Positions 6,280 to 26,964 of a stretch of 64,000 nt of DNA are shown in pieces. The notes beneath the pieces are model-generated. The model was not told where the DNA came from. It saw only the letters and a program-made list of their open reading frames with translations, and ran no database searches. Numbering within the stretch: the stretch's first letter is position 1; the number at the start of each line of letters is the position of its first letter. Position numbers and translations under genes: made by a program. The stretch is from Prochlorococcus marinus str. MIT 9107 (GTDB lineage: Bacteria > Cyanobacteriota > Cyanobacteriia > PCC-6307 > Cyanobiaceae). Where the stretch lies: contig NZ_JNAI01000006.1 in assembly GCF_000759855.1 (NCBI RefSeq), positions 1 to 64,000 of the forward strand, written 5' to 3'.

Positions 6280-6325
6280 CCTGGAGGGGTGGTCGAGTGG
6301 TTTAAGGCTCTAGTCTTGAAAACTA
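6280..6325 (+). repeat. Truncated tRNA-Ser(UGA) 5' part, putative attachment site
   Basis: These 46 bases are identical to 17931-17976. They comprise 3 bases upstream of the tRNA plus its first 43 nt, from the acceptor 5' strand through the D arm and anticodon to part of the anticodon 3' stem. After base 6325 the sequence departs and no 3' half exists here. It cannot be a functional tRNA. The structure is what remains on one side when an element recombines inside a tRNA and supplies a replacement 5' part at its other end. Confidence 0.85.
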
Positions 6326-17785: not shown

Positions 17786-17933
17786 TTTAGCCAAGAAAAG
17801 TACGAGAATTATCAGAACTCATAAAAACCTTAAAATAATTTATTTAAAGTTACTTTTTTTTCTGATGAAACCCTTCAGCTTTGATAAGCCCTCTGCTAAT
17901 ATTATTAAACTAGCTTAATATTTGCTTTCACCT

Positions 17934-18020
17934 GGAGGGGTGGTCGAGTGGTTTAAGGCTCTAGTCTTGAAAACTAGCGTATCTGCAAGGGTACCGTGGG
18001 TTCGAATCCCACCCCCTCCG
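17934..18020 (+). tRNA. tRNA-Ser(UGA)
   Basis: This is a complete 87-nt class II tRNA. The acceptor GGAGGGG pairs with CCCCTCC and the discriminator is G at 18020. The D arm includes GAGTGGTTTAAGGC. The anticodon stem CTAGT/ACTAG encloses loop CTTGAAA, giving anticodon TGA. A long serine-type variable arm precedes the T arm, GTGGGTTCGAATCCCAC. No CCA is encoded. Its first 43 nt are duplicated at 6283-6325, and its last bases are repeated at 25545-25556, so it looks like an integration target from both sides. Confidence 0.97.
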
Positions 18021-18122
18021 TCAGAAATTGGACCCAGAGAGTCACATATATACCCATAAAGTCCTTTAAAAAGGGGATATCTATATTTTATTGAATATAC
18101 GAATGTATTCAATAATCAAATT

Positions 18123-18167
18123 AGTGTTGGGTGAAATGTTGGGTGAATAACTAAAGTGTTGGGTGAA
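18123..18167 (+). repeat. GTGTTGGGTGAA repeats, left copy
   Basis: Three near-identical units GTGTTGGGTGAA lie at 18124-18135, 18136-18147 (first base A) and 18156-18167. The first two, with one leading base, form a 25-bp block repeated exactly at 25450-25474. They begin about 100 bp after the tRNA, which suggests arm-type recombinase sites. Confidence 0.65.
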
Positions 18168-18225
18168 TGAGATTGATTAGAGAAATAAATTTGAGGATAA
18201 ACTTTAAATAATCTCTATTGCATAG

Positions 18226-18510
18226 TCAATCTGGTTCTCTTTCCAAACAATCAGGTGGGTAATAAATCCTATAGTCACATTTCAAGCATGCCCATTTTGC
18301 TGAAGGTATTTCTAAAGAGCAACCCATAATTGCGTATTCTCCAGAGGTTCCATCTTCTGCACTTGGCATACCCCAAATACAAGGTTTTATTGATTTCTTT
18401 GCTTTGCATTTAGGACAGTTTTGAATTTTATGCCATCTATATTCTCCATCAAATAAGGGATAGCAATTCTCCATTAACTTTCCTCGAAAGTACCAAGTAT
18501 CGTCAATCAT
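18226..18510 (-). CDS. Zinc-ribbon-like hypothetical protein (94 aa)
   Basis: The product has two CxxC pairs (NCPKCK near residue 32 and ACLKCD near 75) separated by about 40 residues, which suggests one zinc-binding domain. The rest is rich in aromatic residues (WYFRG, YRWHK, YRIYYPP). No family is recognised. It lies in the restriction island, on the opposite strand to the hsd genes, and 15 bp downstream of the other small gene. It may be island-specific cargo. Confidence 0.5.
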   Translation of the reverse strand: MIDDTWYFRGKLMENCYPLFDGEYRWHKIQNCPKCKAKKSIKPCIWGMPSAEDGTSGEYAIMGCSLEIPSAKWACLKCDYRIYYPPDCLEREPD

Positions 18511-18525
18511 TGGAGGTTCTTTTTT

Positions 18526-18720
18526 TTAGAAATCTTCTTCAAAGGGAATTTCCATTATTGGATTCTTTATTCCATGTTTTTTAGCGGTTTCAAGCATTAC
18601 TTTATAGTCATGCTTGCATTCTTCGTAGAATTTCTTTTCTTCATCTGTAGCGTCTTTATTTAAAGGTTTGCCTGTAGTCGCAAGCATTAATAACCTTTGG
18701 TATCTCTTATTAGTAATCAT
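18526..18720 (-). CDS. Small hypothetical protein (64 aa)
   Basis: This is a soluble, highly charged product starting MITNKRYQRLLMLATTGKP and continuing with KDATDEEKKFYEECKHDYK. It is predicted mostly helical and has no recognised family. It is divergent from hsdM across 110 bp and is followed 15 bp later by the zinc-ribbon gene, so the two probably form an operon. Confidence 0.5.
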   Translation of the reverse strand: MITNKRYQRLLMLATTGKPLNKDATDEEKKFYEECKHDYKVMLETAKKHGIKNPIMEIPFEEDF

Positions 18721-18830
18721 GATTTAATTTTTGCCCTTCACCAAGAAAAATAACAACTTTAACTTTAATTGTAAGCATTAGAAAAGACATCTAAAAAAAG
18801 AAGGATAAAATAATAAAAAATGAGTTTTAA

Positions 18831-20573
18831 GTGAGCGTTTCTTCCCTTCAAATAAATGAAAAACTTACTCTTTCTCAACTTGAGTCATTTCTTTGGGAGA
18901 GTGCAGATATCTTGAGAGGTAGTTTAGATGCTTCTGAATTTAAAGATTATATTTTTGGAATGTTATTTCTTAAGCATTTATCTGATGCTTTTGATGAGGA
19001 GAGAGAAAATGTAATTCAACATTACCTAGATACTGGTAAAACTCAGCAGCAAGCAGAACAATTTGCTTCAGAACAAGATGAATACGACAAAACATTCTTT
19101 GTACCTGAAATTGCAAGATGGAAAAATCTAAAAGATCTCAAACATGACGTTGGGTCAGAACTTAATAAGGCAACTGAAGCAATTGAAGAACAGAATCCAA
19201 CACTTGAAGGCGTATTAGTATCAATTGATTTTAATATCAAAGATAAACTTGATGATGGGAAACTAAGAGATCTTCTGTCTCATTACTCGAAATATAGATT
19301 AAGAACTTTTGATTTTGATAGACCTGATTTACTTGGTGCTGCATATGAATATCTGATCAAGATGTTTGCTGACTCTGCCGGAAAGAAAGGGGGAGAATTT
19401 TATACACCAAGTGAAGTAGTCAAATTATTGGTTGAACTTATTAAACCTAAAGCGGGAATGAAAGTTTATGACCCAACTTGTGGTTCTGGTGGAATGCTTG
19501 TCCAAACAAGAAATTATTTAACAAGAAATGGAGAGAATCCATCTAATCTGATGCTTTCTGGTCAAGAGAGGAATTTGAGTACTTGGGCAATATGCAAATT
19601 GAATATGTTTTTGCATGGAGTAAGAGGAGCAGATATTAGGAAAGGAGACACTCTTGGTGATCCTCAACATGTAGAAAATGGTGAATTGATGAGATTTGAT
19701 AGAGTTATTGCTAATCCTCCATTTTCTTTGAAGAAATGGGGTAGGGACCTCGCTGAGGATGATGGGTATGGAAGATATCGCTTTGGGTTACCTCCTACAG
19801 ATGCTGGTGATTTAGCATTTGTTCAGCATATGATTGCCTCTTTAAATAATGAGGGGGTAATGGGAGTTGTTGTTCCTCATGGTGTTCTTTTTAGAGGTGC
19901 ATCAGAAGGAGAAATTAGAAAAGGAATACTGGAAAATGACCTTTTAGAAGCAGTAATTGGTCTTCCTTCATCACTTTTTTATGGAACTGGAATACCTGCA
20001 GCACTTTTGATTATTAATAAGCAGAAAGATGATGAAAAGAAAGGTAAAGTTCTCTTTATAAATGCTGAACTTGAATATCAGGAAGGTAAAAATCAGAATA
20101 TCTTAAGGGATTTAGACATAGAAAAGATTGTGAGTTGTTTTGATTCTTATGAAGAAATTAAACGCTTCTCAAGAGTTATCTCAATTGAAGAAATTAGAGA
20201 AAATGATCATAACCTTAATATCAGAAGATATGCAGATACGTCTCCTCCTCCTGAAAAGTTTGATGTAAAAGGGATATTAAATGGAGGAATTCCAATTAAA
20301 GAAATTCATGATGAATATATACAGGAGGTTTTAAACGGATTTGATGTGGGTTTAATTTTAGAAAATAAAGATGATAAATATATGATTTTCAAAGATGAGA
20401 TAAAAGATAAATCTCAAATTAGACATATTCTTGGAGAGGTATCTGATTCAGTTATTGAACAGTTTGAGAAATGGTGGGATAAATATGGAGTTTCTCTCTC
20501 TCAAATTGATTCTGAGGTTAAGGAATCTGAATCATTAATGCATGAATTCTTGAAGGATTTGGGATATGAATGA
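18831..20573 (+). CDS. hsdM: Type I restriction-modification methyltransferase HsdM
   Basis: This is the N6-adenine methyltransferase subunit of a type I system. The HsdM N-terminal helical domain ([36 protein letters not shown]) is followed by the catalytic domain. That domain has SAM motif DPTCGSGGM near residue 213 and catalytic NPPF near 295, followed by [14 protein letters not shown] take the GTG at 18831; a 4-codon frame (ATG 18820, MSFK) ends in a TGA overlapping that GTG and might couple translation. The length, 580 residues, is normal. Its end overlaps hsdS by 8 bp. Confidence 0.93.
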
Positions 20574-21747
20574 ATTTAAAAAAATCAAATCTTTTGCAAA
20601 TTCGTTAACCAGAAAGAATATTGATAACAGATCTTCTGCCGATGTTTATTCAGTAACCAAATATGATGGATTTGTGAGATCTCTTGATTATTTCAAAAAG
20701 CAGGTATTCAGTAGAGATTTAAGTACATATAAAATTGTGAAAAAAGGAGAATTTGCATACTCGACTATTCATTTAGATGAAGGAGCAATAGGTCTACTTC
20801 GAGAGGATGAAGCATTAATAAGTCCTATGTATACTGTTTTTGAAGTAGATAAATCTGTTGATATTTTTTACCTAAATCATCTTCTTTCTTGTGATTTGCT
20901 TTTGAATAAATATGCACTTATTGGACAAGGGAGTGTCAATCGTCGAAAATCAGTACCATTTTCAACCTTCTCAGATTTAGAAGTAAGAATACCTTCATTG
21001 AAAGAACAGAAGAAGATTGCCGAAATACTTTCTGAAATTGATAAATTAATTGAAAGTAAGAAAGTTCAAATTGAGAAACTAATGATTTTAAAAAGAGCAC
21101 TTTTGAATTCATTTATTTCTTCTATCGATCTTAAATATAAAAAATTTCCCTTATCTGATTTTGTAGTTAATTATGTTGGTGGAGCGTCACTAAAACCTAG
21201 TGATTTTAATAATAGCGGATTTCAAATTATTCCTAAAAAGGCAGTCCAACTTGGCGGTAAAATAAATCTTGGTGATGAACTTTTGTACTGTAGTTATAAG
21301 TTTGCTGAAGAAAATTCTAATCATATAATTGACTATCGATATGTTATTTCAACTCTAAGGGATCTCGTCCCTTCTGGTCCTTCTATAGGTTTAGTAGGAG
21401 TTTTAGAAGAAAAAGGAAAATTTATTCTTGCTCAAGGTGTTTATGGATTTTTATTAAATGAAGATTTAGATAATCAATTTTTTGTACAGATATCTAATAC
21501 AGATTGGTATAGAAGATTAATGCGAAAGATAATGGTTGGAAGTACACAAGTTCACATTCGATCAAGTGAGTTCTTAAAGATTAATCTTCCTATTCCACCC
21601 ATTAAAGAACAAAAGAAACTAGTAAAAATTCTTGCAAGTTTAGATAAGAGAATAAGTATGGGAAAAGAAAATTTAATTCAACTAAAAAATCTTAAAAGGG
21701 GATTATTAAATGATCTTTTATCTGGTCTGCAAAAGGTAAAGGTTTAA
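20566..21747 (+). CDS. hsdS: Type I specificity subunit HsdS
   Basis: HsdS selects the DNA sequence recognised by the complex. Two target-recognition domains (about residues 1-140 and 190-335) are each followed by a conserved coiled-coil: [20 protein letters not shown] near 145 and [20 protein letters not shown] near 345. Both half-repeats are intact, so a bipartite recognition site is expected. The length, 393 residues, is normal. It overlaps hsdM by 8 bp and has a 1-bp gap to hsdR. Its sequence should vary strongly between strains. Confidence 0.9.
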
Positions 21748-21748
21748 T

Positions 21749-24718
21749 ATGTCTCAACCTGAATTTATTTATGTAGAACAACCAGCAATAAATCAACTCC
21801 AAAGGATTGGATGGTCTTACAAGGATGGCAGAGAATTCGCTCCTGACACTTCAGATATTCGTTCATCTTTAAAAGAAGTAGTTCTAATTCCAAACCTTGA
21901 GCAAGCAATTAAACGCATCAATCCTTGGATCAGCGAAGAAAATCTTAGGAAGATTATTCGTGAAATTACTTTGATTCCATCCTCAACTTTGATTGAGGCA
22001 AATCAATGGTTTTGGGAACGATTAACTCAATATTTTTCAGTTGAACAAGATCTTGGAAAGGGACGAAGAGGACAAACAGTTAAATTGATCGACTTTGACA
22101 AAATTGAAAATAATGAATTCCTTTGTATTAATCAGTTCAAGGTTAAAGGACCTATCCAAAATATTATTCCTGACATTATTCTTTTTGTAAACGGTTTACC
22201 TTTAGGCGTTATTGAATGTAAATCTCCATATATTACTGATCCAATGGAGGCAGGAATTAATCAATTATTGCGTTATGCAAATTTGAGAAATTCAGAGAAT
22301 AATGAAGGATGTCAGAAACTATTTCATTACAACCAAGTAATGATTTCAACTCATAGAGATGAGGCAAGAGTTGGAACAATTTCATCGCCCTATGAATATT
22401 ACTTAGAGTGGAAAGATCCATTCCCTACAGAAAAAAGTGAACTAGGAGAGAATCCAAATTCACAACAAATTCTTATTGAAGGATTATTAAAACCTAAACA
22501 GTTTTTAGATATTATTCAGAACTTCACGATCTTTGAAGTAGAAGATGGTAGAACAATTAAAAAGATTACACGATATCAACAATTTAGAGCAGTTCAAAAG
22601 ACAATTTCAAGATTAAAAACAACTGGTAATCGTAAACAAAAAGGAGGAGTTATTTGGCATACGCAAGGTTCAGGTAAGTCATTAACGATGGTTTTTCTTA
22701 CTCAAAAAATAAGAAGAGATCCCTTATTAAGTGATTATAAATTAGTGTTTCTTACCGATAGAACACAACTTGATAAGCAACTCACAAATACATTTAGAGG
22801 AGCACAAGGAGAAACTGTTTTAAATGCAAAATCAGTTTCTGAATTAAAAGAATTACTTTGCAAAGATTCATCAGATTTAGTTACATCAACTATTCAGAAA
22901 CTAGAAGAGGATGATTTAGATTTCTCTTGTTTAAATGATTCAGATCGAATAATTGTTTTAACTGATGAGGCACATAGGACTCAATATGGAACTTTAGGTG
23001 CTGCTATTAATACTGCATTGCCTAATGCACCGAAGATTGCATTTACTGGAACACCTTTAATTGCTGATCAGAAAACAGTTAATGAGTTTGGAGCATATAT
23101 TGATCAATACACTATTGAACAAGCAGTCGCTGATGGAGCAACTTTGCAAATACTTTATGAAGGTAGAGAGGCAATTACCAAAGTTACTGGGGATTCTTTA
23201 GATGCACTATTTGAAAGATATTTTAAAGATAAAACTCCAGAAGAAAAGAATGCAATAAAGAAAAAATATGGAACTCAACGAGCAGTATTAGAAGCACCCA
23301 AAAGAATCGAATGGGTTGCTCTAGATCTTGTAGAACACTATCGAGAAAAGATAATGCCTAACGGATTTAAAGTAATGATTGTGACTTCTAGTAGAGAAGC
23401 AGCAGTTACCTATAAAAAGAAATTAGATGAGATTCCGGATGCACCAGATTCTGCTGTAATTATTTCTGGTGATCATAATGATCCACCTGAGATGATGCAA
23501 TGGACTAACAAAACTGAGCATCAAAAAATAATTGAAAATTTCAAGAAACCATTAAGTGAAAGTTCTTTATCAATCTTGATCGTAAAAGACATGTTACTTA
23601 CGGGATTTGATGCTCCTATTTGTCAGGTAATGTACCTAGATCGAAAATTAACTGATCACTCTCTACTCCAAGCAATTGCCAGAGTTAATCGAACAAAAGC
23701 AAAGAAATTCATTGGTTATATAGTTGATTACTATGGATTAACAGATTATTTAAAAGAAGCATTGGAAGTTTTCTCTGCAACTGATGTTAAAGGTGCATTG
23801 AGGAATTTAACTGATGAGATTCCGAAACTAGAAGCAACACATACAAGAGTGATAAATCATTTTAAAGATGTTGATATTTCAGATTTAGAAAAATGCATCT
23901 CACTTTTGAAAGATGAATTAAAGCGTCAAAAGTTTGAAATTGACTTTAGAAGTTTCTCAAAACAAATGGAAGTTGTTCTTCCAGATAAGGCAGCATCTCC
24001 TTTCATTAAAGATTTAAAATTACTTGGGAAAATTGCCATCGGGGCAAGGAACAGATACCGCGATGAGGAATTAAATATTCTAGGTGCTGGTGAGAAAGTA
24101 AAAAAATTAATTAACGATCATGTTTTCGCATCAGGAATCGATCCTCGTGTTCCCCCTACAAAATTATTTGATGAATCCTTTATTAAAACTCTTGGAGAAA
24201 TAGAAGGTGATGAAGTTAAGGCATCAGAAATCGAACATGCAATAAAGGCACATATCAAACTAAAAATTGAAGAAGATCCAGAATATTATCAATCTCTATC
24301 TTTACGTTTAAATGAAATAATTGAAAATTACGAGGATAAGTGGGATGAATTAGTTCACCAACTTTTAATTTTTAGAGATGGTATAGAAAAAGAAAAGGGA
24401 GAGAAAGCAAATGATCTTGGGTTAAATGAAACTGAATTTGCTTTTTACAATATTTTGAATGCTGAAGTAGTTAAATCTTTTGGAGAAGAAACTTTCTCTG
24501 ATGAAGTTCACGAAAGAATACTATCTCTAGTTAAAAAACTAGTAAATCAATTTGAAGAATCTTCAAAGATTGTTGGTTTCTTCTTAAAGCAAGATGAAAT
24601 TAAAACTATGCAGAGAAATATAAAAAGAGCAATGATTGAGGATGAATTTGATGATCCTGATCTTAGAAAAATAGTTATTGAGAGATTTATGGAACTTGCA
24701 AGGGTGAAATTCAAATGA
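21749..24718 (+). CDS. hsdR: Type I restriction endonuclease HsdR
   Basis: This is the motor and nuclease subunit. The N-terminal nuclease domain carries the PD-ExK-type GVIECKSP near residue 155. The SF2 translocase follows, with TQGSGKSL (motif I) near 305, the DEAH-type LTDEAHRTQYG near 405, FTGTPL, and the distal motif LTGFDAP then QAIARVNRTK. A helical C-terminal region binds HsdM. The length, 989 residues, is normal and no frameshift is seen. The stop overlaps the metalloprotease start by 4 bp. Confidence 0.93.
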   Translation: MSQPEFIYVEQPAINQLQRIGWSYKDGREFAPDTSDIRSSLKEVVLIPNLEQAIKRINPWISEENLRKIIREITLIPSSTLIEANQWFWERLTQYFSVEQDLGKGRRGQTVKLIDFDKIENNEFLCINQFKVKGPIQNIIPDIILFVNGLPLGVIECKSPYITDPMEAGINQLLRYANLRNSENNEGCQKLFHYNQVMISTHRDEARVGTISSPYEYYLEWKDPFPTEKSELGENPNSQQILIEGLLKPKQFLDIIQNFTIFEVEDGRTIKKITRYQQFRAVQKTISRLKTTGNRKQKGGVIWHTQGSGKSLTMVFLTQKIRRDPLLSDYKLVFLTDRTQLDKQLTNTFRGAQGETVLNAKSVSELKELLCKDSSDLVTSTIQKLEEDDLDFSCLNDSDRIIVLTDEAHRTQYGTLGAAINTALPNAPKIAFTGTPLIADQKTVNEFGAYIDQYTIEQAVADGATLQILYEGREAITKVTGDSLDALFERYFKDKTPEEKNAIKKKYGTQRAVLEAPKRIEWVALDLVEHYREKIMPNGFKVMIVTSSREAAVTYKKKLDEIPDAPDSAVIISGDHNDPPEMMQWTNKTEHQKIIENFKKPLSESSLSILIVKDMLLTGFDAPICQVMYLDRKLTDHSLLQAIARVNRTKAKKFIGYIVDYYGLTDYLKEALEVFSATDVKGALRNLTDEIPKLEATHTRVINHFKDVDISDLEKCISLLKDELKRQKFEIDFRSFSKQMEVVLPDKAASPFIKDLKLLGKIAIGARNRYRDEELNILGAGEKVKKLINDHVFASGIDPRVPPTKLFDESFIKTLGEIEGDEVKASEIEHAIKAHIKLKIEEDPEYYQSLSLRLNEIIENYEDKWDELVHQLLIFRDGIEKEKGEKANDLGLNETEFAFYNILNAEVVKSFGEETFSDEVHERILSLVKKLVNQFEESSKIVGFFLKQDEIKTMQRNIKRAMIEDEFDDPDLRKIVIERFMELARVKFK

Positions 24719-25425
24719 GTGCAATTCCAAAAGAGTTATTTGGATTAAAAGTTGCGGTTTTTCGATCCAAAAGAAAAACTTCAGCACTATATATTATTGG
24801 AGATGAACTTCAAATAAGAGTCCCAACTAGAGTAAGAGATAGAAAAATAGTTGAAATCTTAGAAACTAAAAAAAGATGGATCAGAAATAAAGTCGTTCAA
24901 ATACAAAGCAGACCAGTGAGTAAAGAAAGAGAGTTTGTCAGTGGCGAATCTTTTTCTCTTTTTGGTAAGAATTTAAAGTTAAAAGTTGTAGAAGGAGGAA
25001 GAGTTGGAACTAAATTAGATGGTGATTATCTTTCTACAAATGTAAGAGCATCAGAAATAGGAGATTTAAGAAAATTTAGAATTAAAACATATATCGAAAA
25101 ATGGTATATCCAAGAAGCATCCAAAAGATTGGAAGATAAAGTCATTAAGTATTCAGAAATTATTAGGGTTTCTCCAAGAGAAATAAAAGTCAAAAACTAT
25201 AAATCTAGATGGGGTTCTTGCGATAAGAAAGGAAGATTGACTTTTAATTGGCATCTCATAAAAGCACCACATTCAATCGTTGATTATGTTGTTATTCATG
25301 AACTTTGTCATATGGTCCAACCCAACCATTCTCCGAAGTTTTGGCATGAAGTTGAAAAGTATGATCCTTCTTATAAAGACCACAAGAAATGGTTAAAAGA
25401 AAATGGGAACCTCTTAATTAGATAA
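24715..25425 (+). CDS. YgjP-like (DUF45) metallopeptidase domain protein
   Basis: The N-terminal half is a beta-rich region of unclear role. The C-terminal half has the zinc-peptidase motif HELCHMVQPNHSPKFW near residues 195-210, preceded by KSRWGSCDKKGRLTFNW, both typical of the YgjP/WLM-like DUF45 family. Genes of this family often sit at the ends of type I restriction operons, as here, where it overlaps hsdR by 4 bp. A role in processing or control of the restriction complex is plausible but unproven. The length, 236 residues, is normal. Confidence 0.85.
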   Translation: MSAIPKELFGLKVAVFRSKRKTSALYIIGDELQIRVPTRVRDRKIVEILETKKRWIRNKVVQIQSRPVSKEREFVSGESFSLFGKNLKLKVVEGGRVGTKLDGDYLSTNVRASEIGDLRKFRIKTYIEKWYIQEASKRLEDKVIKYSEIIRVSPREIKVKNYKSRWGSCDKKGRLTFNWHLIKAPHSIVDYVVIHELCHMVQPNHSPKFWHEVEKYDPSYKDHKKWLKENGNLLIR

Positions 25426-25449
25426 AAAACAACAAATTTTTGCTTAAAA

Positions 25450-25474
25450 AGTGTTGGGTGAAATGTTGGGTGAA
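25450..25474 (+). repeat. GTGTTGGGTGAA repeats, right copy
   Basis: This exact 25-bp copy of 18123-18147 lies 24 bp after the metallopeptidase stop. It consists of two 12-bp units and marks the right side of the restriction island. It is also the apparent start of a 97-codon frame (25451-25744) that I do not accept as a gene. Confidence 0.7.
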
Positions 25475-26084
25475 GATTTATCTTTTCGTGAGAAAGTTGT
25501 TGCTATCAGTACTATGTTGTCCCTTATGGACTTAAATGTCATAACACCCCCTCCGTATTTAGAGAACCTGCATAAGGTGTCATATTCCACCATAGTCAGG
25601 CAAAATTATTTTAATCGTAGAGATAAAGCCATATCTGCAAGATTTAAGAAACTTAGCCTTTTCATAGTCCTCCATAAACATTCAGATAGGGGTAATTATT
25701 TACTTGGGGATTTACTGGGGGATTTAGTTTTTCCAGTTCAATAAATATCGCCATAGACAGTCATAGATCATCATTCGGGCTGAATGAAAATCATACCCCT
25801 CCGTCCATAAAACGAATCAGATGTGTTCATTAATATTTAAATTGAACATAAACAGCCAAATAAGAGGCTTTTTACTGAAGAAGATTTTTACAGAACATGA
25901 TATCCATCTCGGTTCAAATTTAATTACATTTTTTTTAAATGTGTTTTGGATATCTCAATAATGTATTTAAAAAAATAATTTTTTTACTGAATTCTATTTT
26001 AAGTTAAATTAGAAAGGCGTATTATTTTATATTCAAATTTTTACTTGTCTTTATCACTAATTAAGTTATTCGAGGATTTTTGAA
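25475..26084. other. Boundary zone with tRNA-end copies, no convincing gene
   Basis: The stretch holds the 12-bp tRNA 3'-end copy at 25545-25556 and a shorter related copy, ACCCCTCCGTC, at 25795-25805. It also has a tandem repeat with period about 12 (ACTTGGGGATTT then ACTGGGGGATTT, about 25703-25726) and a weak AGCC/GGCT hairpin with T5 at 25853-25873. The 97-codon frame starting in the direct repeat has no protein-like character. It looks like scar tissue from more than one integration. Confidence 0.5.
25545..25556 (+). repeat. 12-bp copy of tRNA-Ser 3' end, putative attR
   Basis: CACCCCCTCCGT matches 18010-18021 exactly: the last 11 nt of tRNA-Ser, including the discriminator base, plus the next T. 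It lies 71 bp after the right-hand 25-bp repeat. C-rich runs are rare in this AT-rich sequence, which raises its weight. Confidence 0.5.
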
Positions 26085-26480
26085 ATGGTTTTTCAATACT
26101 TAAAATTCTTATCAAAAGGTAGAAAAAGATTATTTTTATTTTATGGTATTACAAATTTTTTAATAACGAATTCAGTTCTTCATTTATTACTCTTAGTAAT
26201 ACCAATATTTGTAGCCACTATAGTTAGTCAAATAACTAATTTAATAATAGGTTTTTACTTATATGGTAAAAAAGTATTCAGGATGAGCAATCTGACTTAT
26301 AAAGAACTTCGCAAGTATATTTTATTAGCAACATTTAATTGGATTCTAAATTATTTATCAATTAGGTTTATGTATGAAAATGGAATCCACAAAAATTTAG
26401 CTGCAATATTTACTATTCCTTTTCTTGTATTTATTTCTTATTTTTTTCAAAAAAAATATATATTCATTAAATCTGTTTAG
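26085..26480 (+). CDS. GtrA-like membrane protein (131 aa)
   Basis: Four hydrophobic segments are seen (about residues 18-38, 40-62, 80-98 and 105-125). The spacing and the ending SYFFQKKYIFIKS are typical of the GtrA/DPMS family, whose members are thought to flip lipid-linked sugars for surface glycan modification. The length, 131 residues, is normal. The gene stands alone downstream of the island scar. Surface-sugar genes are common in Prochlorococcus islands. Substrate unknown. Confidence 0.7.
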   Translation: MVFQYLKFLSKGRKRLFLFYGITNFLITNSVLHLLLLVIPIFVATIVSQITNLIIGFYLYGKKVFRMSNLTYKELRKYILLATFNWILNYLSIRFMYENGIHKNLAAIFTIPFLVFISYFFQKKYIFIKSV

Positions 26481-26964
26481 AAAAATTATTTTTCAAAATT
26501 TAAATTAAAATTTTTAAAAGAGTGTTTAGGATTAGTTCAGGAAAATATTACTTTTCTGCTGAATTACTTATTCAAATCAGTTCAGTTCTATTAATTTTAT
26601 ATGAACTCTTGGGGCCCTTACTTTCTAATAATATAGCAAGTTAAAGTCAACAGCATATTACATAACACCTTTTTATTCAGTTCTTGTTAAATTTAGTTTT
26701 ATTTTTGAATATGAGTAAAGGATTCGCGACAAATAGCTAATTTTCACAAAAATCAAAAAAAAAGGTTTTCTCCAATGAACCTAAAGGTAGATTAATATCT
26801 TGGTCTCCTTGGTCTCCTGCTAATTTCCAGACAAGATATCCTGCTTTCCCTTTCGTTCTTACAGTATTAATTATAATTATTGGGCAATGGTATATTTCTT
26901 TCCTCAAATAACTTGAAACTTTTTTTACATGCAATTTAAGATCAATTTAGTTTGAGAATTTATT
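26481..26964. other. 484-bp gap with gene remnants only
   Basis: A short open frame from GTG 26522 (39 codons, hydrophobic) and a minus-strand frame at 26737-26934 (65 codons) are present, but neither is convincing. The minus frame contains a perfect 9-bp tandem repeat, GAGACCAAG twice (about 26798-26815), resembling the tandem repeats at the island ends. The area may be decayed island DNA. Confidence 0.4.

Follow-up and report, generated by a model that had tools for sequence, protein, structure and literature searches.

An integrase-less restriction island at tRNA-Ser(UGA) of Prochlorococcus marinus str. MIT 9107 and its putative arm-type sites

In Prochlorococcus the flexible genes are housed in tRNA islands that often lack an integrase, and the route by which such islands move is not obvious. 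The question is raised by a 64,000-nucleotide stretch of Prochlorococcus marinus str. MIT 9107 (contig NZ_JNAI01000006.1, positions 1 to 64,000; the window), in which a 7.5-kb block with a type I restriction system (18021–25556) abuts the 3′-end of tRNA-Ser(UGA). How could a block lacking a recombinase have reached this site? The answer that we consider probable is that 18021–25556 is a non-autonomous relative of the tycheposons, resembling a cis-mobilizable element (CIME), which is moved in trans by a helper integrase. The features of the island are as follows.

17934–18020, + strand: tRNA-Ser(UGA), the integration target, by cloverleaf reading (ARAGORN call, 17933–18022)
18010–18021, + strand: left core (attL side), the tRNA 3′-end CACCCCCTCCGT
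18125–18135, 18137–18147 and 18157–18167, + strand: putative left arm-type sites TGTTGGGTGAA, in a layout shared with integrase elements
18226–18510, − strand: small Cys-rich open reading frame (ORF), 94 aa, without Pfam match
18526–18720, − strand: small ORF, 64 aa, without Pfam match, at the left edge of the cassette shared between chassis
18831–20573, + strand: hsdM, type I DNA methyltransferase subunit (PF02384, PF12161; PADLOC MTase_I)
20566–21747, + strand: hsdS, specificity subunit (PF01420)
21749–24718, + strand: hsdR, restriction/translocase subunit (PF04313, PF18766)
24715–25425, + strand: YgjP-like metallopeptidase gene (PF01863)
25452–25462 and 25464–25474, + strand: putative right arm-type sites TGTTGGGTGAA
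25545–25556, + strand: right core (attR) of the restriction element, a junction seen without the element in other genomes

Insertion at the tRNA and the layers beyond it

The original prediction held that a type I restriction system had inserted at the 3′-end of this tRNA gene, and this central part of it is supported. On both strands of the 1,699,937-bp assembly CACCCCCTCCGT is found at 18010 and 25545 only, which makes the recurrence at 25545–25556 the sole second copy of the tRNA 3′-end genome-wide; shuffles of the window gave a mean of 0.03 matches at ≤1 mismatch. The 25-mer AGTGTTGGGTGAAATGTTGGGTGAA is exact at 18123–18147 and 25450–25474 (0.00 in shuffles at ≤3 mismatches) and encloses, as had been claimed, two small genes, hsdM-hsdS-hsdR and the YgjP-like gene. 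HsdM, HsdS, and HsdR are all present and open, hsdM and hsdR being free of internal stops. That no recombinase is left also agrees with what could be tested: Pfam found no integrase among the six ORFs, and no match to a panel of 17 integrases was obtained in the island. The single PF00589 match in this genome lies outside the island, in a 389-aa ORF (G000:C6:155353-155775) whose phage-integrase domain is weak; ORFs of equal length with the domain recur in many listed genomes of the genus, which points to a core gene and not to an island component.

Of 266 genomes in the genus, 260 gave a match to the tRNA region, and 120 of these loci were read, mostly the best-scoring rows of the match list together with three others (G001, G122, G175; G and L numbers denote genomes and loci). 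At three loci kept in this denominator (L018, L040, L148) the best hit ends in ACCCTCTCCG and perhaps represents another tRNA-Ser. Forty-six of the 120 are empty, the conserved gene downstream having its start motif ≤160 bp away. In eight, a homologue of the window from 25557 onward follows the tRNA 3′-end without a gap, seven of them aligning over approximately 170 bp at 82–90% identity and L106 at 75% over 110 bp. Such a join between the tRNA end and the sequence after 25556 had been set beforehand as the test of insertion. The cleanest case is G196 (L156), in which the tRNA is followed by a cargo-free 25557-family element with an arm doublet, a decayed core and the backbone, and the restriction block is absent; this is the predicted pre-insertion order, except that the third layer described below is missing there. 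The breakpoints fall at a repeat, as expected, and the repeat is the 12-bp core CACCCCCTCCGT; the 25-bp repeat is ruled out as the element boundary. As in tRNA-integrated genomic islands, insertion is at the tRNA 3′-end with a direct repeat at the far side, and island-free sites break at that repeat. The tRNA is left intact.

The variable region was also thought to end at 25556. This is excluded by two further, older layers, and the backbone resumes in the window only at approximately 26623.

25557–25804, + strand: second layer, a 239-bp solo end-pair plus a one-mismatch core (25794–25804)
25700–25723: arm doublet of this solo, where its left end is fused to its right end
25805–26623, + strand: third layer, a decayed element of the TGTGTTTGGGA arm family, both ends of which align with the G042 integrase element
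25940–25951 and 26522–26532: decayed arms of the third layer, with a decayed core at approximately 26613–26623
26085–26480: GtrA-like gene in the third layer (PF04138)

Core decay grows outward through this layered accretion: the core is exact at 25545, carries one mismatch at 25794 and is barely recognisable at approximately 26613. In window 25557–25795 the G012 element aligns by its left end over the first 173 bp (85.5%) and by its right end over positions 119–237 (82.8%), the two alignments overlapping around the doublet TTACTTGGGGATTTACTGGGGGAT. Solos of 239 bp are present in G008, G208, G175 and the window, in three arm families, and each comprises the left end of its family (to approximately 167–188) and the right end (from approximately 119–145) with the doublet in common. 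From this structure, which matches the expected product, we infer recombination between two arm sets. Cargo-free solos at tRNA-Ser(UGA) are seen at L035, L147, L155, and window 25557–25795.

Terminal repeats and the integrase-bearing relatives

The 25-bp repeats turn out to be part of a 3+2 set of 11–12-bp repeats located inward of the cores, by approximately 104 bp on the left and 94 bp on the right. TGTTGGGTGAA occurs five times in the island, three times on the left and twice on the right, the third left unit (18157–18167) lying beyond the 25-bp repeat. To place this in context, bounded elements were defined as the tRNA plus a second core with ≤1 mismatch, a definition which leaves more decayed cores, such as that of G196, outside the count. 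The 120 loci and the window hold 50 such elements: 30 of type A, which end at the short core, and 20 of type B, with the 3′ half of the tRNA at the far end. Three of the type-A elements are 239-bp solos and 27 are longer (≥330 bp). Matching tandem doublets at both ends were detected in 18 of these 27, the window's included and one of the 18, L127 (TTTGTGTTTT), being doubtful. The best-scoring unit lies 90–97 bp from the right core and 102–155 bp from the left core, and no dinucleotide-shuffled pair of ends passed the doublet test (0/540). The repeat sequence is family-specific (TGTTGGGTGA, TGTGTTTGGG, GGTAGGGG, TTACTGGGGGAT, TTGTTGGCAG). When the left end of one element was compared with the right end of another, 60 of 702 pairs were positive, 40 of them within one arm family; since the other 20 join different families or involve an unassigned element, the arm families grade into one another.

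Relatives with an integrase inside the same repeats had been anticipated. Elements of the same terminal layout which carry an integrase were found, and none of them has the GTTGGGTGAA arms of the island. The G042 element (L034) occupies 6.1 kb at tRNA-Ser(UGA), with genes for a tyrosine recombinase of 429 aa and, separate from it, a serine resolvase of 205 aa. Homologues of this integrase occur in 23 of the 266 genomes, with three in G042 itself. Twenty-one integrase loci were examined, of which 16 have a tRNA and a core copy; the five showing no tRNA in the stretch were left out. An exact right doublet is present 81–104 bp inside the right core in 14 of the 16, or 12 of 14 as a fairer figure, the pairs L313/L314 and L312/L315 being near-duplicates. 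The controls gave 0/3200 for shuffles (of 60-bp windows, the test itself using 65-bp windows) and 71/20000 for random 65-bp windows. Integrase elements with this layout reside at four tRNAs, namely tRNA-Ser(UGA), (CGA), and (GCU) and tRNA-Asn. By eye, several of them show a lone third unit past the left doublet, like the restriction island. At tRNA-Ser(UGA) an integrase of this kind was seen in only one of the 50 elements, and a reach of 14 kb at the 120 loci likewise gave one. Four integrase-less elements at this tRNA (L017, L019, L047, L139) have the same TGTGTTTGGG arms as the integrase element.

AlphaFold2 models of the 17 integrases (mean predicted local distance difference test score 85.4, predicted template modelling score 0.54) show an N-terminal sheet-and-helix domain, a core-binding domain and a catalytic domain. 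The N-terminal part of the G042 integrase model resembles arm-type binding domains, with 3ju0 (Z 12.2, root-mean-square deviation (rmsd) 1.9 over 87 residues) as well as 3jtz (Z 11.2) and 3rmp (Z 10.7), and the remainder resembles lambda Int 1z19 (Z 16.4, rmsd 3.4 over 249 residues). All 17 proteins match PHROG integrase families, 12 match Pfam Phage_integrase and three match Arm-DNA-bind_3. Judged by its modelled fold, the integrase has a P4-like N-terminal arm-type DNA-binding domain. The doublets are interpreted as arm-type integrase binding sites because their layout is common to integrase-bearing elements and because the modelled integrase possesses this domain; for the island itself the assignment remains putative.

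In lambda, the arm sites of attP are P1, P2, and P′1–P′3. Like lambda attP and the P4-like integrases (PDB 3jtz, 3ju0, 3rmp), the present system combines five arm units flanking the core, as 2+3, with an N-terminal arm-binding domain. Unlike lambda attP, the units are 11–12 bp long, vary in sequence with the element family and are retained in elements lacking an integrase.

Movement of the cassette and the explanations weighed

Full-length hsdR at ≥ approximately 90% identity was found in eight of the 266 genomes, this one included. Five of these carriers (window, G014, G230, G255, G259) have the tRNA-Ser(UGA) core at their readable end. In G071 the same cassette is located at tRNA-Ser(CGA), with core CACCCTCTCCGT and, by eye, GTCTCNAGGTT arms; in G217 it lies between AGGTTTCCCTC doublets (by eye) on a contig stretch without a tRNA; for the block of G044 neither tRNA nor core was found. 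G247 retains ygjP and the last codons of hsdR only. One cassette, spanning 18526 to approximately 25428, is in this way housed in several chassis. The 94-aa Cys-rich ORF, positioned to its left, is present in all three tRNA-Ser(UGA) versions whose left end can be read (window, G014, G259) and absent from G071, G217, and G044. In G259 (L014) ygjP is not followed by right arms or a core, and a fragment of the hsdR tail (81%, 124 bp) occurs approximately 1 kb beyond, which suggests a rearranged island end.

The right ends of the four readable tRNA-Ser(UGA) carriers are 77.5–97.5% identical over the inner 120 bp and 48–65% over the next 200 bp. Beyond the right core, the window has its solo, G014 passes directly into the backbone, G230 carries what resembles a solo remnant from a different arm family, and G255 has unrelated sequence. 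These differing neighbours suggest repeated site-specific movement. In the hsdR tree of eight sequences G071 (CGA) groups with G255 (0.98) and then G259 (0.96), and G044 groups with G230 (0.99), so that no hsdR clade specific to the tRNA-Ser(UGA) chassis was recovered. These eight sequences, with the hsdM and ygjP trees in conflict, hint at a loose linkage between cassette and chassis. The aligned parts of HsdS are 24–32% identical between carriers and HsdR is 90–94% identical in the seven other genomes (L013, L014, L058–L062 for hsdS), a disparity that would reflect fast change of restriction specificity. G014 has two hsdS-like stretches.

From these observations the following course is proposed. 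The element was inserted by site-specific recombination, in which its copy of the tRNA-Ser(UGA) 3′-end recombined with that of the chromosome; this left the tRNA intact and a 12-bp core at the far end, as the junctions and empty sites show. It keeps both ends and, in the form of five direct repeats (three left, two right) whose number and placement agree with what arm-type integrase sites should have, its putative arm-type sites. A tyrosine integrase with a P4-like arm domain, like that of related elements such as G042, would then act on it in trans upon entering the cell, both integrating and excising it. Newcomers would insert beside the tRNA and push older elements outward; recombination between the two arm doublets would delete the cargo and give 239-bp solos, as their structure implies; and the restriction cassette presumably passes between chassis at different tRNA genes.

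A number of results weigh against this proposal. The search for an integrase element bearing GTTGGGTGAA arms gave none; the exact GTTGGGTGAA doublet occurs in three of the 266 genomes, always inside the restriction island, and in no IMG/VR contig. A looser arm pattern yielded at least 117 stretches in genome contigs and 22 in IMG/VR, and none of these 139 loci held a homologue of the 17-integrase panel, most of them being ≤8 kb, in which a distant gene could be missed. The genome of MIT 9107 has no homologue of the G042 integrase, and the restriction element may accordingly be stranded; nor did the island match phage records. Most of the eight junction loci are left ends of other 25557-family elements, several with their own cargo, and what they establish is that this family adjoins the tRNA. 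The contexts of the window and G230 are not fully independent, their right neighbours appearing 65% identical with a local score of 123 against a shuffle maximum of 44 (other pairs, 21–29). As regards the repeats, the doublet test was negative for nine of the 27 longer type-A elements and for two of the 16 integrase elements, an exact left doublet is present in nine of those 16, and the windows and rules of the test were fixed only after the ends had been read. Finally, the G042 integrase itself falls just below the Pfam cut-offs and has no Arm-DNA-bind_3 match.

The best surviving alternative is that of a dead relic, an integrase-bearing tRNA island (a tycheposon or an integrative and mobilizable element (IME)) which lost its integrase by deletion and became fixed, its patchy occurrence being due to descent, deletion and homologous exchange of flanks. 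The lack of a recombinase in the island and of a helper homologue in its genome would fit this, as would the visible reduction or decay of both deeper layers and the 7–14% nucleotide difference in hsdR between carriers, which implies an old lineage. We nevertheless hold it to be a minority possibility: the differing neighbours at the right core of the four readable carriers are hard to obtain by flank exchange alone, the window and G014 each retain two intact cores and a full set of five intact arm units, and integrase-less elements are the rule at this tRNA.

Alternatively, the cassette might owe its spread chiefly to homologous recombination between island ends and cargo genes, any integrase having a minor role. 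This account gains from the solos, as left and right ends fused at the doublet, from the presence of the same cassette in different chassis and from the disagreement of the hsdR, hsdM, and ygjP trees. It is an unlikely one, given that insertion is exact at the core with the tRNA intact, as in site-specific recombination, and that integrase elements of the same layout occur at four tRNAs.

Iterons are short direct repeats with an 11–12-bp period. The doublets would fit that description too and could be replication-origin iterons or transcription signals instead of arm-type sites. Their occurrence at both ends at a near-fixed distance from the core, with or without an integrase, and the arm-binding domain of the modelled integrase make this very improbable. 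A chance origin of the repeats, with no element boundary, draws on the frequency of short repeats in AT-rich DNA and is ruled out by the shuffle controls and by the junctions at the core in other genomes.

Taking the trans-mobilized element as the preferred reading, a wider picture is quite possible and is put forward tentatively: Prochlorococcus tRNA genes might host a large class of integrase-less elements defined by their ends, in which the core and 3+2 arms of 11–12 bp serve as an integrase address, a few integrase carriers serve many elements in trans, cargo swaps addresses and 239-bp solos remain as scars. If the arm sets are such addresses, integrase-less islands could be recognised by sequence alone, each could be assigned to the kind of integrase able to move it, and the stacking order would constitute a relative clock at each tRNA. 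There would also be a concrete route by which a phage defence, in this case a restriction system, passes between lineages.

Known systems and other elements at tRNA-Ser genes

Tycheposons are tRNA elements of Prochlorococcus with a tyrosine recombinase and a size of 4–200 kb (PMC10872708). The island shares with them the host genus, tRNA insertion, cargo and a size (7.5 kb) within that range, and its terminal layout is common to the integrase-bearing tRNA elements found here. A tyrosine recombinase is, however, their mark (PMC10872708); the island has none and no helper with the same arms was found, and because it lacks this marker it is not filed as a tycheposon. CIMEs arise by deletion from an integrative and conjugative element or an IME, retain attL and attR, and lack genes for integration and transfer (PMC5704250). 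The island likewise keeps two identical 12-bp cores and five putative arm units, has no integration or transfer genes (its two small ORFs lacking a Pfam match), and shares tandem stacking at one tRNA by accretion (PMC5704250). It differs from them in that no parent integrative and conjugative element or IME with the same arms was found among the matches listed, in that help in trans is proposed, and in that it also stands alone on the backbone, in G014.

For the layering, the nearest parallel in the literature compared is provided by the ssrA islands of Dehalococcoides, many of which are stacked at one RNA gene, some being thought to lack integration or transfer genes (PMC3146451). Those with a module have a serine recombinase, and the available part of that paper mentions no arm-site sets (PMC3146451). 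With regard to cargo, hsdM, hsdS, and hsdR lie together with hsdS variable and hsdR conserved, as is usual for type I restriction-modification systems; unlike typical ones, this cassette occurs in several integrative chassis and is paired with YgjP. The available parts of PMC10872708, PMC5704250, PMC3146451, PMC2951348, and PMC11389934 were found to contain no account of arm sets that differ by family in integrase-less islands of Prochlorococcus, the original tycheposon description lying outside this search, which gives a weak hint of novelty.

Type-B elements form a second class at this tRNA, none of the 20 having passed the doublet test. Approximately 55 bp of the tRNA, its 3′ half, recur at their far end (e.g., L024, L026, L037, L041), and by eye they show looser repeats of the GGCACA/TTCGGCACA types, such as the GGCACA type in L041. 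Perhaps they reflect another integrase specificity with a core near the anticodon. A 43-nt copy of the tRNA-Ser 5′ part (17934–17976, down to the anticodon loop) occurs at window 6283–6325 and precedes a block with urease and transporter-like genes which ends at the tRNA, a mirror-image counterpart of the type-B elements.

Further short repeats, of GTCATA, CTCATA, and GTCTGA types depending on the family, were noted by eye between the core and the arm doublets in several elements (e.g., L035, L039, L015, and L214); these are candidate excisionase or further integrase sites. Among the looser-arm Prochlorococcus loci, of which only those with G+C <0.40 or a tRNA within 250 bp were inspected, TGTTGGGGGA-type arms lie 156–159 bp after tRNA-Ser(CGA) or (UGA). 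Short cargo-free elements similar to the solos are found by eye at tRNA-Ser(CGA) as well (L207, L260).

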